Assembly: GCF_001179845.1 (NCBI RefSeq)
Contig: NZ_CVSB01000006.1
Span: 1-64,000, forward strand
Origin: Candidatus Pelagibacter communis
GTDB taxonomy: Bacteria; Pseudomonadota; Alphaproteobacteria; Pelagibacterales; Pelagibacteraceae
Reading direction: 5' to 3'
Length of the DNA stretch: 64,000 nucleotides
Within the stretch, counting starts at the first letter, position 1; every line of letters starts with the position of its first letter. Under the pieces are notes generated by a model. The model was not told the origin of the DNA. It made no database searches and was given only the letters and a program-made list of their open reading frames with translations. Positions 4,996-50,411 of this stretch are shown piece after piece. Position numbers and translations under genes: made by a program.

Positions 4996-5024
4996 AAAAG
5001 GCGCTTAATTTAAGCGCCTTTTTT
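4996..5024 (+). terminator. Rho-independent terminator of recA
   Basis: The left arm AAAAGGCGCTT and right arm AAGCGCCTTTT form a GC-centred hairpin with a short AT loop. The arms are followed by a T run (5019-5024). It lies 18 bases after the recA stop and is the clearest intrinsic terminator in the window. Confidence 0.85.
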
Positions 5025-45243: not shown

Positions 45244-46293
45244 ATGGCAAAAATTAAAATAAAAAGAGAGCGAGTTAAATTCGCTTCTGATAATGTTGCT
45301 GGTGCTTGTCCCGAGGTATTAGATGCAATTTTGAAAGCCAATGAAGGAGATAGTACTCCTTATGGTAATGATCCGATATCAACAGAATTACAAGACAAAT
45401 TTTCAGAAATATTTGAAAAAGAAGTAATTGTTTTTCCTACTGCCTCAGGTACTGCAGCTAATGCTTTAGCATTATCTACAATGACACCTTCTTATGGAAA
45501 TATTTATTGTCATAAGATGTCCCACATAAATACAGATGAATGTGGTGCACCTGAATTTTATACAGGAGGGGGAAAGTTAGTTACTTTAAATGGAGTGATG
45601 GGAAAAATAACATCAGAGGAGTTGGATCAATCGATAGGTGGAAAAGGGATTGTTCATCATACACAACCTTCATCAGTCAGTATCACTCAAGTGTGTGAAA
45701 CAGGTGAAGTTTATCAATTAGATGAAATAAAAAAAATTGGAGAAATCACCCATAAACATAATTTAAATTTACATATGGATGGAGCCAGATTTGCTAACGC
45801 ATTGGTATCTTTAGATGTAAGTCCTGCTGAAATGACATGGAAATCTGGGGTTGATGTATTGTCATTTGGAGCAACTAAAAATGGATGTCTAGCAGCTGAA
45901 GCAATTATATTTTTTAAGAAAGAATTAGTTGGAGACATTGCTTTTTTAATGAAAAGAGCGGGGCACTTATTATCAAAAATGCGTTTTGTTTCTGCACAAC
46001 TCGATGCCTATATTTCAAATGATGTTTGGTTGAGAAACGCAAAGCACGCTAATGCAATGGGTAAAAAATTAAGCGATGGTTTAAGCAAGCACAATGATAT
46101 TGAAATTGCTTATCCTACAGAAGCAAACGAAGTATTTGCAAAATTTCCAAGAGAAAAAATAGAATATCTAAATTCTGAAGGTTATAAAATGAATGAAGAA
46201 GAATTAGATGGTAAAGCGGTCAGATTAGTTGCTGCTTGGAATACTAAAGATAGTGATGTCGATGAATTGTTAAATACAATTAAAGTTAACTAG
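45244..46293 (+). CDS. ltaE: Low-specificity L-threonine aldolase
   Basis: A 349-residue PLP enzyme that splits threonine or allo-threonine to glycine and acetaldehyde. The PLP lysine is K212 in FGATKNGCLAAEA; ASDNVAGACPEVLDA, YGNDPISTEL, FPTASGTAANAL and LHMDGARFANAL are family blocks. It follows the amidinotransferase by 2 bases. Together with the two upstream enzymes it points to glycine supply. Its end overlaps the convergent 75-aa gene by 8 bases. Confidence 0.93.
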   Translation: MAKIKIKRERVKFASDNVAGACPEVLDAILKANEGDSTPYGNDPISTELQDKFSEIFEKEVIVFPTASGTAANALALSTMTPSYGNIYCHKMSHINTDECGAPEFYTGGGKLVTLNGVMGKITSEELDQSIGGKGIVHHTQPSSVSITQVCETGEVYQLDEIKKIGEITHKHNLNLHMDGARFANALVSLDVSPAEMTWKSGVDVLSFGATKNGCLAAEAIIFFKKELVGDIAFLMKRAGHLLSKMRFVSAQLDAYISNDVWLRNAKHANAMGKKLSDGLSKHNDIEIAYPTEANEVFAKFPREKIEYLNSEGYKMNEEELDGKAVRLVAAWNTKDSDVDELLNTIKVN

Positions 46294-46513
46294 GATTTTC
46301 TTTTAAAAACTCAATATACTTTATTACTTCATCAAATTTTTCATCAGGAATATCCTTGTAACTTACATTGAATTTACTTTTCACACAAATCGCAACATGA
46401 GCATAGGGGTTTCTTCCTTTAGGGTGATTTGGATGATCAGGTAATTGCCCCACCAAATAATCGCCAGCTTCCTGAATAATTTTCCACAGTTTACTTGCGT
46501 TTTCTTTGTTCAC
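46286..46513 (-). CDS. 75-aa protein, intact target gene of the cassette region (ORF6C-like?)
   Basis: A small protein starting at GTG (46513). The N-terminal third (NKENASKLWKIIQEAGDYL) is predicted to be an amphipathic helix. The rest includes HPNHPKGRNPYAHVAICVKS and FNVSYKDIPDEKFDEVIKYI, the latter faintly like the ORF6C domain of phage antirepressors; that resemblance is weak. The first 60 bp of the gene is repeated at 48811 and 49872 as truncated copies. Copy C keeps an ATG start, while this intact copy has GTG, consistent with the 5' end having been replaced. Function unknown. Confidence 0.65.
   Translation of the reverse strand: MNKENASKLWKIIQEAGDYLVGQLPDHPNHPKGRNPYAHVAICVKSKFNVSYKDIPDEKFDEVIKYIEFLKENPS
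46453..46512. repeat. 60-bp direct repeat, copy A (in intact 75-aa gene)
   Basis: It begins CCAAATAATCGCCAGC and ends TTTCTTTGTTCA on the plus strand. It differs from copies B and C at one base (C for G in CCA[C/G]AGTTT). It forms the first 20 codons of the intact gene on the minus strand. A TTTATCT core frame follows 19 bases after its end, as with copy B. Confidence 0.9.
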
Positions 46514-46530
46514 ACACTCACTTTTCTTGT

Positions 46531-46556
46531 TTTATCTCTTTTGTATCTAGTTTGTA
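46531..46556. repeat. Islet 1 left core repeat
   Basis: TTTATCT then CTTTTGTATCTAGTTTGTA. It matches 48662-48687 at 25 of 26 bases. It is followed by a TAGTTATCC and TATAAAATCCTAT tail (ending 46580), which recurs after the left core of islet 2. Confidence 0.8.
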
Positions 46557-46613
46557 TCTAGTTATCCTATAAAATCCTATAAATTGTAACCAGTATCAAT
46601 AGAGATTTTTTAA

Positions 46614-47177
46614 TTATTTAAATGTAGTCATCTTCAAATATTCTTCTAAGTTATTCTTAATCCATTTGAGACGCTTATCTTTATTTGCCTGCAAATCCGA
46701 ACGTCTCAATATTCCAACTAATCCATGAACAGATGCCCAAATATTGACTGCTTTTATCATAACATCTTTATCAGATGCATTGGGCATAAAATTTTTAACT
46801 CCTTGAATTACTCCATCAAAAGCTTCATCAAATAGAGCTTCTATATCGGGATAAAGAGATATATCTAAATCCGTATTCCCAAACATTAAATCGTAAATAT
46901 ATGGATACTTTAATCCAAATCTTATGTAATGAGCTCCGTAACCAGAAAAATTATTGGTTAAATTTTTCTTGCCCTTATTTATTATTTCAAAACCTCTTCG
47001 AACCAACTCTGCTTTAAGATCATTTTTGTTTTTTAAATGTCTATAAAAAGCAGTATTTGAAACTCTAGCTTTCTTAGCAACTTCTCGCATATTAACTTTT
47101 TCCCAAGACTCAGCGACACAAATATTCCATGCAACCTCAACGAGTTTTTCTTTTAGATTTTTTTTGTGATAGCTCAT
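46614..47177 (-). CDS. TetR/AcrR-family transcriptional regulator
   Basis: A 187-residue repressor. The N-terminal helix-turn-helix is VNMREVAKKARVSNTAFYRH followed by LKNKNDLKAEL at about 23-52. The C-terminal ligand domain is helical with WASVHGLVGILRRS. The base composition is AT-rich like the chromosome. It is divergent from the two membrane genes; two palindromic operators lie between. It probably represses them and itself. Confidence 0.88.
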   Translation of the reverse strand: MSYHKKNLKEKLVEVAWNICVAESWEKVNMREVAKKARVSNTAFYRHLKNKNDLKAELVRRGFEIINKGKKNLTNNFSGYGAHYIRFGLKYPYIYDLMFGNTDLDISLYPDIEALFDEAFDGVIQGVKNFMPNASDKDVMIKAVNIWASVHGLVGILRRSDLQANKDKRLKWIKNNLEEYLKMTTFK

Positions 47178-47185
47178 ATCAAATT

Positions 47186-47239
47186 AATGTTTACAAAGTA
47201 AACATTTTCCTATAGTAATCATGTTATCTTAGTAAACAT
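47186..47239. promoter_or_regulatory. TetR operator pair
   Basis: O1 (47186-47206) is a perfect palindrome, AATGTTTAC-AAA-GTAAACATT. O2 (47221-47239) has the same form with an imperfect left arm, ATGTTATC-TTA-GTAAACAT. The centres are 34 bp apart, about three helical turns. They fill the gap between tetR and the membrane operon, so binding could block both promoters. Confidence 0.75.
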
Positions 47240-47278
47240 AATAACAGGATTTTAAATATAATGAAAGAAGGTTGGATC

Positions 47279-47827
47279 ATGAAGAAAAATTTGTATCTTA
47301 GCGCCGTTTGGTTGATCATAACACTTTTGGCAACTGGCTTAGTCCTGTATTTCTTGCGAAATTTCCTACCCAATGATCTTGAATCTTGGTTCTCCTATAG
47401 TGGACTGATTGCGATGATTGGCTGGGTGATCTTGATTTTTGGGCCACGACGTTGGCCGTTATTATCGATCTTGCCGGCGTATGTTTTCCCAGCAGTTCTA
47501 TCGTTGGGTTACGTGATTTTGATACTGCGCCACTTCGGTCCCGCTGAAGGTGGTTACAATACACTAGCGGATGTAGCGAAATTATTATCCAACGATCATA
47601 TTTTGCTAGCAGGTTGGGTGCACTATTTGGCGTTCGACCTTTTCATTGGTGCATGGATTTCACGGCAATCAGATGATGCTGGTATTTCACGAGTAGTTCA
47701 GGCTCCGATCCTAGCCTCAACTTTCATGTTTGGCCCACTTGGGTTGCTCCTGTTCCTGATGTTATGGAAGGCCCGTAAACTGATACTAGATATCCCTCAA
47801 TCGATAACAAAAGGAGCTGGACAATGA
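47279..47827 (+). CDS. DUF4281 (ABA4-like) membrane protein
   Basis: A 182-residue membrane protein with four or five helices. The C-terminal part, LLAGWVHYLAFDLFIGAWIS followed by TFMFGPLGLLLFL, is the DUF4281 signature shared with plant ABA4. Bacterial function is unknown. The ATG at 47279 has a GAAGG site about 8 bases upstream; the ATG at 47261 would add six residues. G+C and codon use (many G and C third positions) are unlike the chromosome, so it appears to be recently acquired. It overlaps the next gene by 4 bases. Confidence 0.75.
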   Translation: MKKNLYLSAVWLIITLLATGLVLYFLRNFLPNDLESWFSYSGLIAMIGWVILIFGPRRWPLLSILPAYVFPAVLSLGYVILILRHFGPAEGGYNTLADVAKLLSNDHILLAGWVHYLAFDLFIGAWISRQSDDAGISRVVQAPILASTFMFGPLGLLLFLMLWKARKLILDIPQSITKGAGQ

Positions 47828-48630
47828 CGACACTGACACTATCACCAAAGGTTTCTGTGACTTCCCGTGTGGAGGATTTGCTCTGGCAGGGTGGTTTAAT
47901 TATCATCGCGTTCTTGCCAGTCACGTTCCTGGTTTCACTTTATGATCCACGTCAGCTGAACGAAATAAATATTTGGTCGAAACCAATGAAGTTCTATGCG
48001 TCGGTTGGACTGCACATGATAACCATCGCCTTCATTGCACGTTTTATTGATTACGATGTTCGGAGAAAATTTTCGGTTTATGTCCTGGGCTGGGTCCTGA
48101 CATTCACTGCGATTTTTGAGTTGGCCTACCTTACTATGCAGGCTGCACGCGGACGTCACTCGCACTGGAACTTCGAGACCACGTTCGAATCCTTGATGTA
48201 CGCTGCAATGGGCATTGGAGCTGTCATATTGATTCTGATTCCTGTAGTAATCGGTCTGCTGGTTTACCGCTACCCTGTTCGTGAGATGCGTCAGGGTCTA
48301 CGACTTGGTATTTTGTTAGGCATGATCCTCGGATTTTTCACAACTTTAATTGTCGCCGGTTATATGTCGCAAACATACGGCCACTGGGTCGGTGGAGTCA
48401 AAAGTGATGCCGATGGCCTGCCAATCGTCGGTTGGGTGCGTAGTGGTGGTGACCTACGTGTGCCTCACTTCTTCGCGACGCACTTGATGCAGATCATCCC
48501 TGTGATTGGATTTATCGCTGATCGTTTCTTCCAAAGACCAAGACTTATTGTTGTCATCGCATCTACTATAGGTGTAGGTATGGTCGCTTTCACATTCTTG
48601 CAGGCTTTAAGAGGTCAACCATTCATCTGA
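47824..48630 (+). CDS. Membrane protein of unknown family (268 aa), foreign composition
   Basis: I do not recognise the family. The product has about seven hydrophobic segments, for example GGLIIIAFLPVTFLVSL, VLGWVLTFTAIFELAYLT, and AAMGIGAVILILIPVVIGLL. A loop GHWVGGVKSDADGLPIVGW and HFFATHLMQIIPVIGF have possible metal-binding His. At 48421-48480 I count 36 G or C in 60 bases, far above the surrounding genome. It is translationally coupled to the DUF4281 gene (ATGA), and the two probably work together under TetR control. Confidence 0.75.
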   Translation: MTTLTLSPKVSVTSRVEDLLWQGGLIIIAFLPVTFLVSLYDPRQLNEINIWSKPMKFYASVGLHMITIAFIARFIDYDVRRKFSVYVLGWVLTFTAIFELAYLTMQAARGRHSHWNFETTFESLMYAAMGIGAVILILIPVVIGLLVYRYPVREMRQGLRLGILLGMILGFFTTLIVAGYMSQTYGHWVGGVKSDADGLPIVGWVRSGGDLRVPHFFATHLMQIIPVIGFIADRFFQRPRLIVVIASTIGVGMVAFTFLQALRGQPFI

Positions 48631-48661
48631 TCAGCAATTTGCTTTAAAAATAGTTATTTGA

Positions 48662-48810
48662 TTTATCTTTTTTGTATCTAGTTTGTAATGTAGTTTTTTT
48701 ATTAAATAGATGAGTCTTTAAGCGATTTACTTAATGTAAATTTTTGATTATCCGCATAAGTACTGTAGTTTGATGTAGCTTAATGTGGAATAATGTGTCC
48801 CTCTATTCCC
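48662..48810. repeat. 149-bp right-end module of islet 1
   Basis: Order: TTTATCT core repeat (48662-48687), TAGTT, GATGAGT at 48709, an imperfect hairpin from TTTAAGCG (48717-48724) to CGCATAA (48753-48759), then four 10-bp phased units at 48761-48800 (TACTGTAGTT, TGATGTAGCT, TAATGTGGAA, TAATGTGTCC), then 10 bases, then repeat copy B. The module at 49723-49871 has identical length and order. The phased units could be recombinase arm sites. Confidence 0.75.
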
Positions 48811-48871
48811 CCAAATAATCGCCAGCTTCCTGAATAATTTTCCAGAGTTTACTTGCGTTTTCTTTGTTCAC
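48803..48871 (-). pseudogene. Truncated 5' fragment of the 75-aa gene (copy B, 22 codons)
   Basis: Starts with GTG at 48871, keeps the first 20 codons of the 75-aa gene, then ends in TAG after Leu-Gly-Glu. It shares its exact length and stop position with the fragment in copy C, so it may be part of the module and not a random remnant. Confidence 0.65.
48811..48870. repeat. 60-bp direct repeat, copy B
   Basis: Identical to copy C over 60 bases and one base different from copy A. It ends the islet 1 unit and begins islet 2. Confidence 0.9.
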
Positions 48872-48888
48872 ACTACTTCAAAACCTGA

Positions 48889-48922
48889 TTTATCTAAATC
48901 TGCTATAGTCTGTGATATAGTT
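48889..48922. repeat. Islet 2 left core repeat
   Basis: TTTATCT frame at 48889, then the core 48901-48922 (TGCTATAGTCTG then TGATATAGTT), identical to 49735-49756. It is followed by ATCCTATAAAATCCTAT, the same tail as in islet 1. Confidence 0.8.
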
Positions 48923-48941
48923 ATCCTATAAAATCCTATCT

Positions 48942-49424
48942 TCATCTCATTTTATTTTTACTAGTTTTTTTGCACTTAAACATGCCTCGCATTTCACTAT
49001 TTTCATCAGGATTTACAGCTAACTCAATTAAACTATTATTTTTTTTTCTAACTTTAAATTTTATGATTTGATTATTTTTTCCATAAGTAAATAATTTAGT
49101 TACAAAATCTCCCTTTTTAGTAATATCTATATATAAGCCATCAAATCTCCACTTTTCATCAGGATTATCATTAACTATTTTTGATAATTTTTCCTCCCTT
49201 AAGAATTTTTTTTTTCCATTTCCAATAGAAGACCAAAAAAAATAAATTTTTTCTTTATCTAAACCCACATAGCGAATTCCATCCCAATAAACTCTTTCTA
49301 TATTACCAACAAATTTAGTACCCTTGCCGCTACATGCGTAGTAAAATTTATTGGAAAATAAACTAGCTTTAGAGGAATTGATGAACAGTACTAAAAACAA
49401 AAATATAGCAAGTATTTTTTTCAA
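48942..49424 (-). CDS. Secreted hypothetical protein (160 aa), islet 2 cargo
   Basis: No family recognised. It has a signal peptide (MKKILAIFLFLVLFINSSKA), then ASLFSNKFYYACSGKGTKFV. The mature part is basic, with two Cys (YACSG and FKCKK) that may pair. Base composition is AT-rich. It follows the 70-aa membrane gene directly with no gap, so the two are co-transcribed. A role in envelope or phage interaction is possible but not supported by sequence. Confidence 0.6.
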   Translation of the reverse strand: MKKILAIFLFLVLFINSSKASLFSNKFYYACSGKGTKFVGNIERVYWDGIRYVGLDKEKIYFFWSSIGNGKKKFLREEKLSKIVNDNPDEKWRFDGLYIDITKKGDFVTKLFTYGKNNQIIKFKVRKKNNSLIELAVNPDENSEMRGMFKCKKTSKNKMR

Positions 49425-49637
49425 TTACTTTTTTTTTGATTTTTTTTTAAAAAAAGACATCACTATTAAAATAATTCCAACTACAAACCCAATTTCACTT
49501 AATAAAGTAAAATTGCCTATACCACCAAAAAGAGCCATTGTTAATGTATTGCCTGTCTGAAGCATGATATTCAGTGGATACATTATTGATATTACAAGAA
49601 TAAAAATACCAATTGTTCTCAAGCTAAATGATTTCAT
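49425..49637 (-). CDS. Small two-helix membrane protein (70 aa), islet 2 cargo
   Basis: Two hydrophobic helices (IGIFILVISIMYPLNIML at about 9-26 and LSEIGFVVGIILIVMSFF at about 46-63) followed by a lysine tail. No family recognised. The ATG abuts the module side of the islet and its stop abuts the 160-aa gene start. Small membrane proteins of this kind can be toxins or exclusion factors, but nothing shows this here. Confidence 0.55.
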   Translation of the reverse strand: MKSFSLRTIGIFILVISIMYPLNIMLQTGNTLTMALFGGIGNFTLLSEIGFVVGIILIVMSFFKKKSKKK

Positions 49638-49722
49638 AAATTTATTTTAACATAAACAATAAGTTTCTTCATTATTTAATTACAATAAGTATAAACGGTA
49701 GTTTCTTCTAAAAGCTATTTGA

Positions 49723-49871
49723 TTTATCTCAACTTGCTATAGTCTGTGATATAGTTTTTTGTTTAAATTGATGAGTTTTTAGGCGTATTATTTTCAATTA
49801 AATTTTAATTATCCGCCTAACTAGTGTGAAGTAGTGTGAGGTCGTGTGGGGTAGGGTGTACCACTAGCACC
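49723..49871. repeat. 149-bp right-end module of islet 2
   Basis: Order: TTTATCT frame (49723), core repeat (49735-49756), GATGAGT at 49770, imperfect hairpin from TAGGCG (49780-49785) to CGCCTA (49814-49819), then four 10-bp phased units at 49822-49861 (TAGTGTGAAG, TAGTGTGAGG, TCGTGTGGGG, TAGGGTGTAC), 10 bases, then repeat copy C. Sequence has diverged from the islet 1 module, but spacing is the same to the base. Confidence 0.75.
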
Positions 49872-49932
49872 CCAAATAATCGCCAGCTTCCTGAATAATT
49901 TTCCAGAGTTTACTTGCGTTTTCTTTGTTCAT
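49864..49932 (-). pseudogene. Truncated 5' fragment of the 75-aa gene (copy C, 22 codons)
   Basis: Starts with ATG at 49932, keeps the first 20 codons of the 75-aa gene, then ends in TAG after Leu-Gly-Cys. The ATG suggests that this is the original 5' end. It has the same length and stop position as copy B. Confidence 0.65.
49872..49931. repeat. 60-bp direct repeat, copy C
   Basis: Identical to copy B. TTTATCT follows 12 bases after it, but no core or TAGTTATCC tail follows, so this looks like the undisturbed end of the array. Confidence 0.9.
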
Positions 49933-49943
49933 ACAGTCTAGTT

Positions 49944-50411
49944 TTATCTAAAAAATAAACTTTTTCTAATATCTATTATTTCTCTGATCTGTTTGTCTTT
50001 AATAGCATTCCAAGAAACGAATAAAGTACATAATTGATATAAGGCAAATATTTCATTTTTTTGATTTTGAGATAAATCACTATCTGCTTCAACATAGTTT
50101 TCAAAATAAGAAATATTATTTCTCGCACAGTTTAAATAATATTTACAAGCGTCTGTTACTGTACCAGTTGACCACCAGTTCGAGTCTCTGAAAAGATTAG
50201 ATATTTCTTGGTAGAAAGAACTTGTTTCAGAAATAGCCAAATCCTTTTGAACATTTTCTGAAAATTGATCTAATTCAAATTGAATTAAAGCCAATACCTT
50301 TTTTTCACTACTTCTCTTCACAAGCAGCTCAATGACATTTTTATATGACATTGTTTGGATTTTATTCCAATTATCAAAAAAATCGTTTGGTGCTTTATTA
50401 ATATCTACCAT
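49944..50411 (-). CDS. Hypothetical protein (155 aa)
   Basis: No family recognised. A soluble, mostly helical protein; N-terminal VDINKAPNDFFDNWNKIQTM followed by LVKRSSEKKVLALIQFELDQ, and a central WWSTGTVTDACKYYLNCARN. It lies just right of the repeat array and left of a methyltransferase gene. The reading frame is long, AT-rich in style and clean, so it is probably real. The first lines of the protein (NKI near a helix) faintly recall phasin-like proteins, but I cannot support that. Confidence 0.6.
   Translation of the reverse strand: MVDINKAPNDFFDNWNKIQTMSYKNVIELLVKRSSEKKVLALIQFELDQFSENVQKDLAISETSSFYQEISNLFRDSNWWSTGTVTDACKYYLNCARNNISYFENYVEADSDLSQNQKNEIFALYQLCTLFVSWNAIKDKQIREIIDIRKSLFFR

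Follow-up and report, generated by a model that had tools for sequence, protein, structure and literature searches.

Islands that are bounded by attachment (att) sites and lack recombination genes of their own are familiar from the families of integrative and conjugative elements (ICEs), in which cis-mobilizable elements (CIMEs) accrete in tandem at the site of their helper. In Dehalococcoides, which belongs to another phylum than the bacteria considered here, islands gather at the 3′ end of the tmRNA gene ssrA with the help of a serine integrase, and the recombinases of tycheposons form a deep-branching clade of tyrosine recombinases. SAR11 bacteria are among the most abundant bacteria of the ocean, with small genomes and few obvious mobile elements, and the exchange of their flexible genes is poorly understood. 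Here, we analyse a 64,000-nucleotide stretch of Candidatus Pelagibacter communis, from a genus of SAR11 (Pelagibacteraceae) (contig NZ_CVSB01000006.1, positions 1 to 64,000; hereafter the window), in which two units are stacked at the start of a gene for a 75-amino-acid (aa) protein. These units are very probably non-autonomous site-specific integrative cassettes that would be served in trans by the integrase of ∼9-kb elements, with arm repeats matching those of the helper class. The locus offers a concrete gene vehicle for SAR11, with defined ends, a target, a crossover region and a candidate helper enzyme, and its arm-repeat classes predict which cassette should pair with which helper.

Among the ssrA islands of Dehalococcoides, 16 carry an integration module and 15 do not, the latter having been proposed as possible cis-mobilizable elements (PMC3146451). 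Like the SAR11 cassettes, these islands stand in tandem, are bounded by short copies of a single target gene and hold varied cargo. The original prediction of a candidate new integrative system at the SAR11 locus was therefore too strong, given that tandem att-bounded islands without an integrase are known; on the other side, the extract of that account makes no mention of arm-repeat classes, unlike what is found in the SAR11 cassettes. With CIMEs, the 40 complete cassettes that we delimited in SAR11 share att-type bounds (by the very rule through which they were found), the lack of a homologue of three integrases and, where they form arrays, the tandem arrangement. They differ in that the putative helper L142 (one element, ten proteins) gave no match to conjugation functions and in that their conserved end motifs are missing from the helpers.

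Phage-inducible chromosomal minimalist islands (PICMIs) are small satellites that encode an integrase and a DUF5906 primase, sit next to one conserved host gene and in some cases carry defence cargo (PMC10803314). The helper-type elements L132 and L142 resemble them in combining an integrase with a DUF5906 primase; an AlpA-type regulator was sought in the helper-type elements, with no AlpA family match and one weak MerR-like match. PICMIs encode their integrase and target fis in Vibrionaceae, whereas the cassettes of the window have no integrase and the SAR11 sites are the start of the 75-aa gene or a hairpin between recA and alaS. Islands at dusA use a tyrosine integrase and a target in the 5′ end of a protein-coding gene that integration may restore, and the integrase is the only feature that the extract describes as universal among them (PMC4482086), which again sets them apart from cassettes devoid of one. 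Tycheposons and virion-encapsidated integrative mobile elements (VEIMEs) are, like the cassettes, marine site-specific integrative elements, some being satellites and others carrying cargo. However, according to the extracts, tycheposons are found at tRNA genes, in contrast to the two SAR11 targets, and no tRNA gene was found in the window. Finally, clusters of attC sites lacking integron-integrases (CALINs) and miniature inverted-repeat transposable elements (MITEs) are also mobile units without an enzyme of their own but, as far as the extract goes, they depend on other recombination sites and enzymes (PMC11389934), and RNAalifold revealed no common fold in the modules at one end (P′, see below) of the 40 cassettes. 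Since a defining feature of each of the CIMEs, tycheposons, PICMIs and integron cassettes is lacking, we file the SAR11 cassettes under none of these. Their kind is known in principle from CIME-like islands and MITEs, and what is new is the host, the two target sites, the arm classes and the end motifs missing from the helpers; a literature search in PMC retrieved no paper listed as describing such cassettes in SAR11.

The mechanism that we propose would proceed as follows. A circular cassette would lack an integrase and carry an attachment site (attP) in which a copy of the gene start, as core, is flanked by arm repeats on either side. A tyrosine integrase encoded by another element would recombine this attP with the matching 5′ end of the 75-aa gene, upon which the copy brought by the cassette would restore the reading frame and the old gene start would be pushed outward. 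Repeated insertion at the restored site would then build a tandem array. The integrase would come in trans from rarer, probably circular elements of ∼9 kb with integrase, primase/helicase and RusA-like genes, and the arm-repeat sequence would pair each cassette with its class of helper.

Structure of the array

Cassette ends are named after the direction of the gene, the P end lying just before the intact gene and the P′ end just after the displaced start (Table 1). The array largely has the layout of the original prediction. Three copies of the first 60 bp of the gene follow each other in the same direction, at most 1 bp away from the positions first given, their spacing yields units of 2,358 and 1,061 bp, and TTTATCT followed by the tail of the core repeat is present in both units. 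The predicted right-end module is also there, although it extends over ∼175 bp as a profile that recurs in other genomes, and not over 149 bp. As anticipated, no recombinase, transposase or replication family was matched by the five main open reading frames (ORFs) of the two units in a Pfam search. The P′ module of unit 1 combines phased ACAxTA-like repeats, a spacer (TTATGCGG..AAAGACTCATC) and the arm repeats ACTACATTACAAACTAGATAC. When the assembly of the window (92% complete) was searched with a 321-bp piece containing the module and the ends, it matched at this locus only. Across the genus, the P′ module is found above chance, in 67 of 399 genomes at E ≤ 1e-4.

Table 1. Features of the window discussed in the text, in order of position.
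Feature	Position	Strand	Remarks
recA-alaS intergenic hairpin: second att target, same integrase family	5003..5024	-	Empty in the window
75-aa target gene	46286..46513	-	First 60 bp (46454-46513) are the attachment region, from the last cassette inserted
P end, unit 1	46516..46582	-	AGATAAAAC, two 11-bp repeats ACTAGATACAA and tail TATAGGATTTTATAGGATA (46563-46581); profile 47 bits
Cassette unit 1	46514..48871	-	2,358 bp, gene-start copy to next copy
Unit 1 cargo: TetR-family regulator, 187 aa	46614..47177	-	Pfam TetR_N, 7.9e-07
Unit 1 cargo: ABA4-like protein, 188 aa	47261..47827	+	Pfam PF14108, 6.7e-29
Unit 1 cargo: 268-aa protein, hydrophobic by eye	47824..48630	+	ORF; no family in Pfam search
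P′ module, unit 1	48658..48831	-	Profile 147 bits; module-profile match 2.7e-29
Displaced 60-bp gene-start copy, unit 1/unit 2 junction	48812..48871	-	59/60 identical to the intact start
P end, unit 2	48873..48939	-	Arm repeats ACTATATCACAGACTATAGCA; 35-bp arm shared exactly with element L142
Cassette unit 2	48872..49932	-	1,061 bp
Unit 2 cargo: 160-aa protein, signal-peptide-like N-terminus by eye	48942..49424	-	ORF; no family in Pfam search
Unit 2 cargo: 70-aa ORF	49425..49637	-	No family in Pfam search
P′ module, unit 2	49719..49892	-	Profile 158 bits; module-profile match 9.1e-30
Outermost displaced gene-start copy	49873..49932	-	58/60 identical to the intact start; 14 bp past the 155-aa coding region
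155-aa host gene, outer flank of the array	49944..50411	-	No family in Pfam search; directly 5′ of the 75-aa gene at seven empty sites

Empty sites and movement of the cassettes

Comparison of related loci delimits the target, its empty form and the region of crossover. The 75-aa gene was detected in 44 of 61 genomes by protein search, and a DNA query made of the gene and the cassette end matched 306 of the 399 genomes of the genus (E ≤ 0.001, the weakest matches being perhaps due to chance). Of at least 118 named records containing the gene sequence, the 80 listed are nearly all assigned to Pelagibacteraceae or Pelagibacter and come mostly from single-cell genomes. The genomes used were mostly drafts, many of them from single cells. 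We compared 97 loci, namely the window, 20 loci of the same genus, 18 others (one of the same genus and 17 of another family of the order) and a further 58 of the same genus, of which 40 were picked mainly because the match extended into a cassette end and 18 mainly because it ended near the gene. Since the loci were partly chosen for their cassettes, no occupancy rate should be taken from this set.

With a complete cassette defined as a gene-start copy and a P′ module up to the next gene-start copy, 40 cassettes of 793 to 6,847 bp with differing cargo were found in 35 of the 97 loci, and seven loci (L114, L115, L116, L117, L119, L121 and L122) are empty. Relatives thus provide the empty, one-cassette and other-cargo versions of the locus that the original prediction called for. 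At six of the empty sites, 14 bp separate the end of the 155-aa coding region (stop included) from the 75-aa gene, the distance being 12 bp in L115, and the same 14-bp spacing precedes the outermost displaced copy at five occupied loci (the window, L078, L103, L107 and L108). Because of this match, the displaced copy is most simply the original start of the host gene and the intact start is the one borne by the cassette. A profile search detected neither P nor P′ ends in the 17 loci from the other family of the order. Within the genus, the profile of the P′ module is present in 13 of the 57 genomes with a completeness of ≥90% and a contamination of ≤5%; as the single-contig genome G408 contains the module, it is not solely an artefact of single-cell amplification or draft assembly. 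A longer tandem array, in which a partial P′ module joins three full ones, occupies L282:5643-11094 in genome G176.

A contrast between a cassette and its surroundings is offered by unit 1, which is 99.745% identical over 2,357 bp to the cassette of L073 in genome G209, while identity drops to 86.4% for the whole 75-aa gene, 82.5% further downstream and 66.6% over 1.9 kb for the nearest alignable upstream sequence. Six mismatches between the two loci, one of them at gene offset 26, fall in the stretch that begins beyond the displaced copy and closes with the intact 60-bp copy; 30 of the 31 mismatches in the gene lie past its first 60 bp, beginning at offset 61, and at the outer end the displaced copy differs only at offsets 0 and 5. 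This pattern places the crossover within offsets 6-60 of the gene, the widest interval being retained since the mismatch at offset 26 could derive from either host or cassette. The crossover may lie near the AGGAAGCTGG block that is common to the attPs of the integrase elements L132, L142 and L297. In the same vein, L040 and L105 share a cassette (99.3% identity over 1,150 bp) between flanks that are 82-94% identical. Tandem duplication, or ordinary homologous recombination at the gene start, would account for displaced copies that are near-identical to the gene start and for the short segments that cassettes often have in common. Yet it fits poorly with differing cargo between conserved ends of fixed geometry and with a near-identical unit between diverged flanks, and is contradicted by exact empty sites and by attP-bearing elements; we give it practically no credence.

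The cargo scan covered 93 of the 96 ORFs of at least 80 aa, the three skipped (L073) being duplicates of those of the window. Matches include DNA methylases, subunits of type I and II restriction systems, GmrSD and HtrA-type proteases. The cargo tables stop at the 25 commonest families, so that an infrequent mobility gene, integrases excepted, could have escaped notice. Besides, a recurring 5′ end of secreted-protein-like genes (ATGAAAAAACTTTTAGGGATCGTGGTTCTGGG) is seen at cargo ORFs in L040, L104, L105, L102 and L097; it is fused directly to the tail of the P end in L104 and in the common cassette of L040 and L105, as if it were a recombination point.

Architecture of the attachment sites

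In most P ends, AGATAAAAC is preceded by a pair of ACTxxxxxx repeats spaced by 11-12 bp, and a similar pair is present in the P′ module of the same cassette. Within cassettes, the similarity between P and P′ arms reaches a mean of 8.275 out of 9 positions versus 5.90 after shuffling, and none of 10,000 shuffles attains the observed mean, a comparison that is not corrected for relatedness among cassettes and in which the automated placement of the arms went wrong for at least one locus (L107). With L107 excluded, the second repeat of the P end takes 19 distinct forms. Core and P′ arm are separated by 126-127 bp in 36 of the 40 cassettes, by 116 bp in three and by 128 bp in one, and the separation amounts to 127 bp in L132 and L142, which carry an integrase; L040 and L105, each with one repeat fewer in the P′ alignment, have a single cassette in common. 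Such a fixed core-to-arm geometry suggests working sites rather than scars. Moreover, L142 and unit 2 of the window have exactly the same 35-bp P arm. A hairpin in the P′ module, as RNA or DNA, was considered on account of an imperfect inverted repeat noticed by eye in several modules and was set aside, RNAalifold predicting no structure from the alignment of the 40 sequences.

Source of the integrase

No homologue of three integrases was detected by tblastn (E ≤ 1e-3) in the 40 cassettes or the 97 loci. The original prediction had proposed cassettes stacked at one site and moved by an enzyme made elsewhere, and had called for a search of the genome for a recombinase gene with the same ends. 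The stacking and the external enzyme are supported, but no such gene appeared in the genome of the window and the enzyme is best placed on separate elements of ∼9 kb, some of which combine an integrase gene with the same attP. Scans of viral contigs, which are metagenomic predictions from IMG/VR and not proven virions, retrieved L132 and L133 with a gene-start pattern and L142, L297, L298 and L299 on the basis of the integrase. L132, L142, L297, L298 and L299 measure 8,983-9,271 bp and have direct terminal repeats of 29, 81, 98, 77 and 120 bp, respectively, which suggests circular molecules. In L132, L142 and L297, the attP includes the start of the 75-aa gene and a tyrosine integrase gene follows within ∼120 bp; L298 and L299 have the same layout with a different core.

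Besides its integrase (PHROG integrase, 7.8e-25), L142 encodes a RusA-like protein and a primase of the archaeo-eukaryotic primase (AEP) type that includes a DUF5906 domain, and L132 likewise has an integrase and a DUF5906 primase. The ten scanned proteins of L142 gave no match to capsid, relaxase or conjugative secretion functions, a weak MerR-like match and one weak match to a terminase small-subunit family. Four integrases, those of L142, L132 and two remoter relatives, all have R387, K414, R510, H534 and Y544, which we take to be the catalytic residues of the tyrosine integrase family. In four elements, P′ arm repeats are located within the first codons of the integrase (L132:5774, L142:5137, L298:8585 and L299:8356), and coding and presumed binding functions therefore overlap. 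Integrated forms occur as well. Genome G183 has an element at the same locus as the array of the window, with similar neighbours and a broken integrase, and in G424 an element abuts a 75-aa gene, with a more distant integrase (31%) near the opposite end of the contig. Taken with the shared att architecture, these elements point to an L142-type integrase that would act on the cassettes in trans, the arms being putative binding sites that would set compatibility.

The tyrosine recombinase family PF00589 was found in 35 of 48 genomes, a set comprising every genome with a complete cassette (35), mostly as a single protein of ∼325 aa that is presumably Xer. It shares a contig with the 75-aa gene in just two genomes, at a distance of 86 kb in G010 and of 324 kb in G408. 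The sole match in the genome of the window is a 325-aa protein on a different contig. One may then wonder whether the host Xer recombinase integrates the cassettes, as for integrative mobile elements exploiting Xer (IMEX), since most of the 35 positive genomes have this one protein, far from the site. We regard this as very improbable, because elements with the same attP encode their own integrase beside it and because cassette sites have long arm regions, which to our knowledge Xer sites do not require. A serine recombinase was also discarded, PF00239 being present in one of the 35 genomes with complete cassettes, on a contig other than that of the gene.

Cassette-specific end motifs

The tail of the P end is conserved at 13-19 of 19 positions in 37 of the 40 cassettes versus 9-11 in all eight helper-type elements, and a P′ motif at 14 or more of 18 positions in 38 of the 40 cassettes versus 9-11 in all five helper-type elements; both motifs were derived from the cassettes themselves, and among the eight elements that of G098 shows no integrase, its contig being cut. 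Given these motifs, the cassettes do not have the appearance of recent deletion products. Such motifs, common in cassettes and missing from the ∼9-kb elements, would also be explained if a different and as yet undiscovered helper, with an integrase of another class or a phage, were to read them, the ∼9-kb elements sharing the target only. However, the two classes resemble each other in core, arm repeats and core-to-arm spacing, the arm of unit 2 is that of L142, and a PF00589 protein shares a contig with the gene only in the two genomes mentioned above, which makes such a helper unlikely, though worth keeping in mind.

Several observations weigh against the service of the cassettes by L142-type integrases, beginning with these cassette-only motifs, which leave room for an unseen helper. 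Arms are unlike at the two ends in five of the 40 cassettes (L040, the 1,697-bp cassette of L048, L104, L106 and L091). Of these, only L091 has a second, internal P′-like segment, which makes a fusion of two cassettes likely in L091 and possible in the other four. The integrases of L132 and L142 score 26.1 and 22.0 with PF00589, just under the cut-off of 27.1, and family searches are thus weakly sensitive to such enzymes. The AlphaFold model of the integrase is poor (mean predicted local distance difference test of 55), gives no structural support and was left out of fold searches. Relatives of the integrase occur in only six of the 399 genomes of the genus, and the closest, in G183 (pieces of 58-72% identity), is interrupted by stops. 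Finally, both the circular cassette and its excision are presumed. Non-autonomous cassettes moved by the integrase of ∼9-kb elements nevertheless seem to us the most probable account.

Transfer from cell to cell may occur in phage particles or by another route. On the phage side, the exact P tail TATAGGATTTTATAGGATA is present in six viral contigs (L330-L335), which ORF starts in common, compared by eye, assign to one pelagiphage-like family. The large terminase of L334 is 61-67% identical to those of pelagiphages HTVC027P and HTVC023P and of the seawater phage 023Pt_psg01, and its P tail (L334:3933-3951) is found shortly before a gene of a PHROG family without known function. As a phage site, the tail was set aside and kept as a lead only: a reversed control pattern of equal composition occurs in one contig, and counted as independent places the score is one versus one, which does not set the tail apart from chance. 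In regions of ∼25 kb around the terminase of HTVC027P, HTVC023P and 023Pt_psg01, the best match to the tail is 14-15 of 19, versus 13-16 in shuffled HTVC023P, and two patterns of the P′ motif found no exact match in the viral contigs. A 31-bp arm match in pelagiphage HTVC131P (E 0.5) was treated as chance, the first 8,626 bp containing no repeat pair. A tentative extension, which we hold to be rather doubtful, would be a SAR11 system in three layers, in which the integrase-less cassettes constitute a cis-defined class, with its own end motifs and its arm repeats (19 second repeats here) as addresses, parasitise circular ∼9-kb integrase/primase satellites at two or more targets (the start of the 75-aa gene and the recA-alaS hairpin), are packaged by pelagiphages and offer a main route by which restriction systems and other flexible genes are gained.

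Second target and secondary sites

The core of L298 and L299 matches the recA-alaS hairpin (both genes identified by eye), which we read as the terminator of recA. With one mismatch allowed, this core was found in 24 of 201 genomes and has an element end alongside in two of them, G098 and G177. In G098, the ORFs at the site resemble by eye those of the G183 element, and the contig ends before any integrase. In G177, an end with a cassette-type tail (15/19) stands beside four pilin-like ORFs, no integrase match was obtained in the 12 kb read, and the far end lies off the contig. In a cassette-type insert at the recA site, L328:217-2331 contains four tandem ORFs that are near-identical in their pilin-like N-terminus and differ in the rest. 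At a distance from the 75-aa gene, L283:8740-10855 is a cassette at a secondary site with the core GTAGGAAGTTGACTTTTATTTGGGG, and attP-like relics (L277, L278, L279 and L280) are common to genomes G372, G173 and G409.

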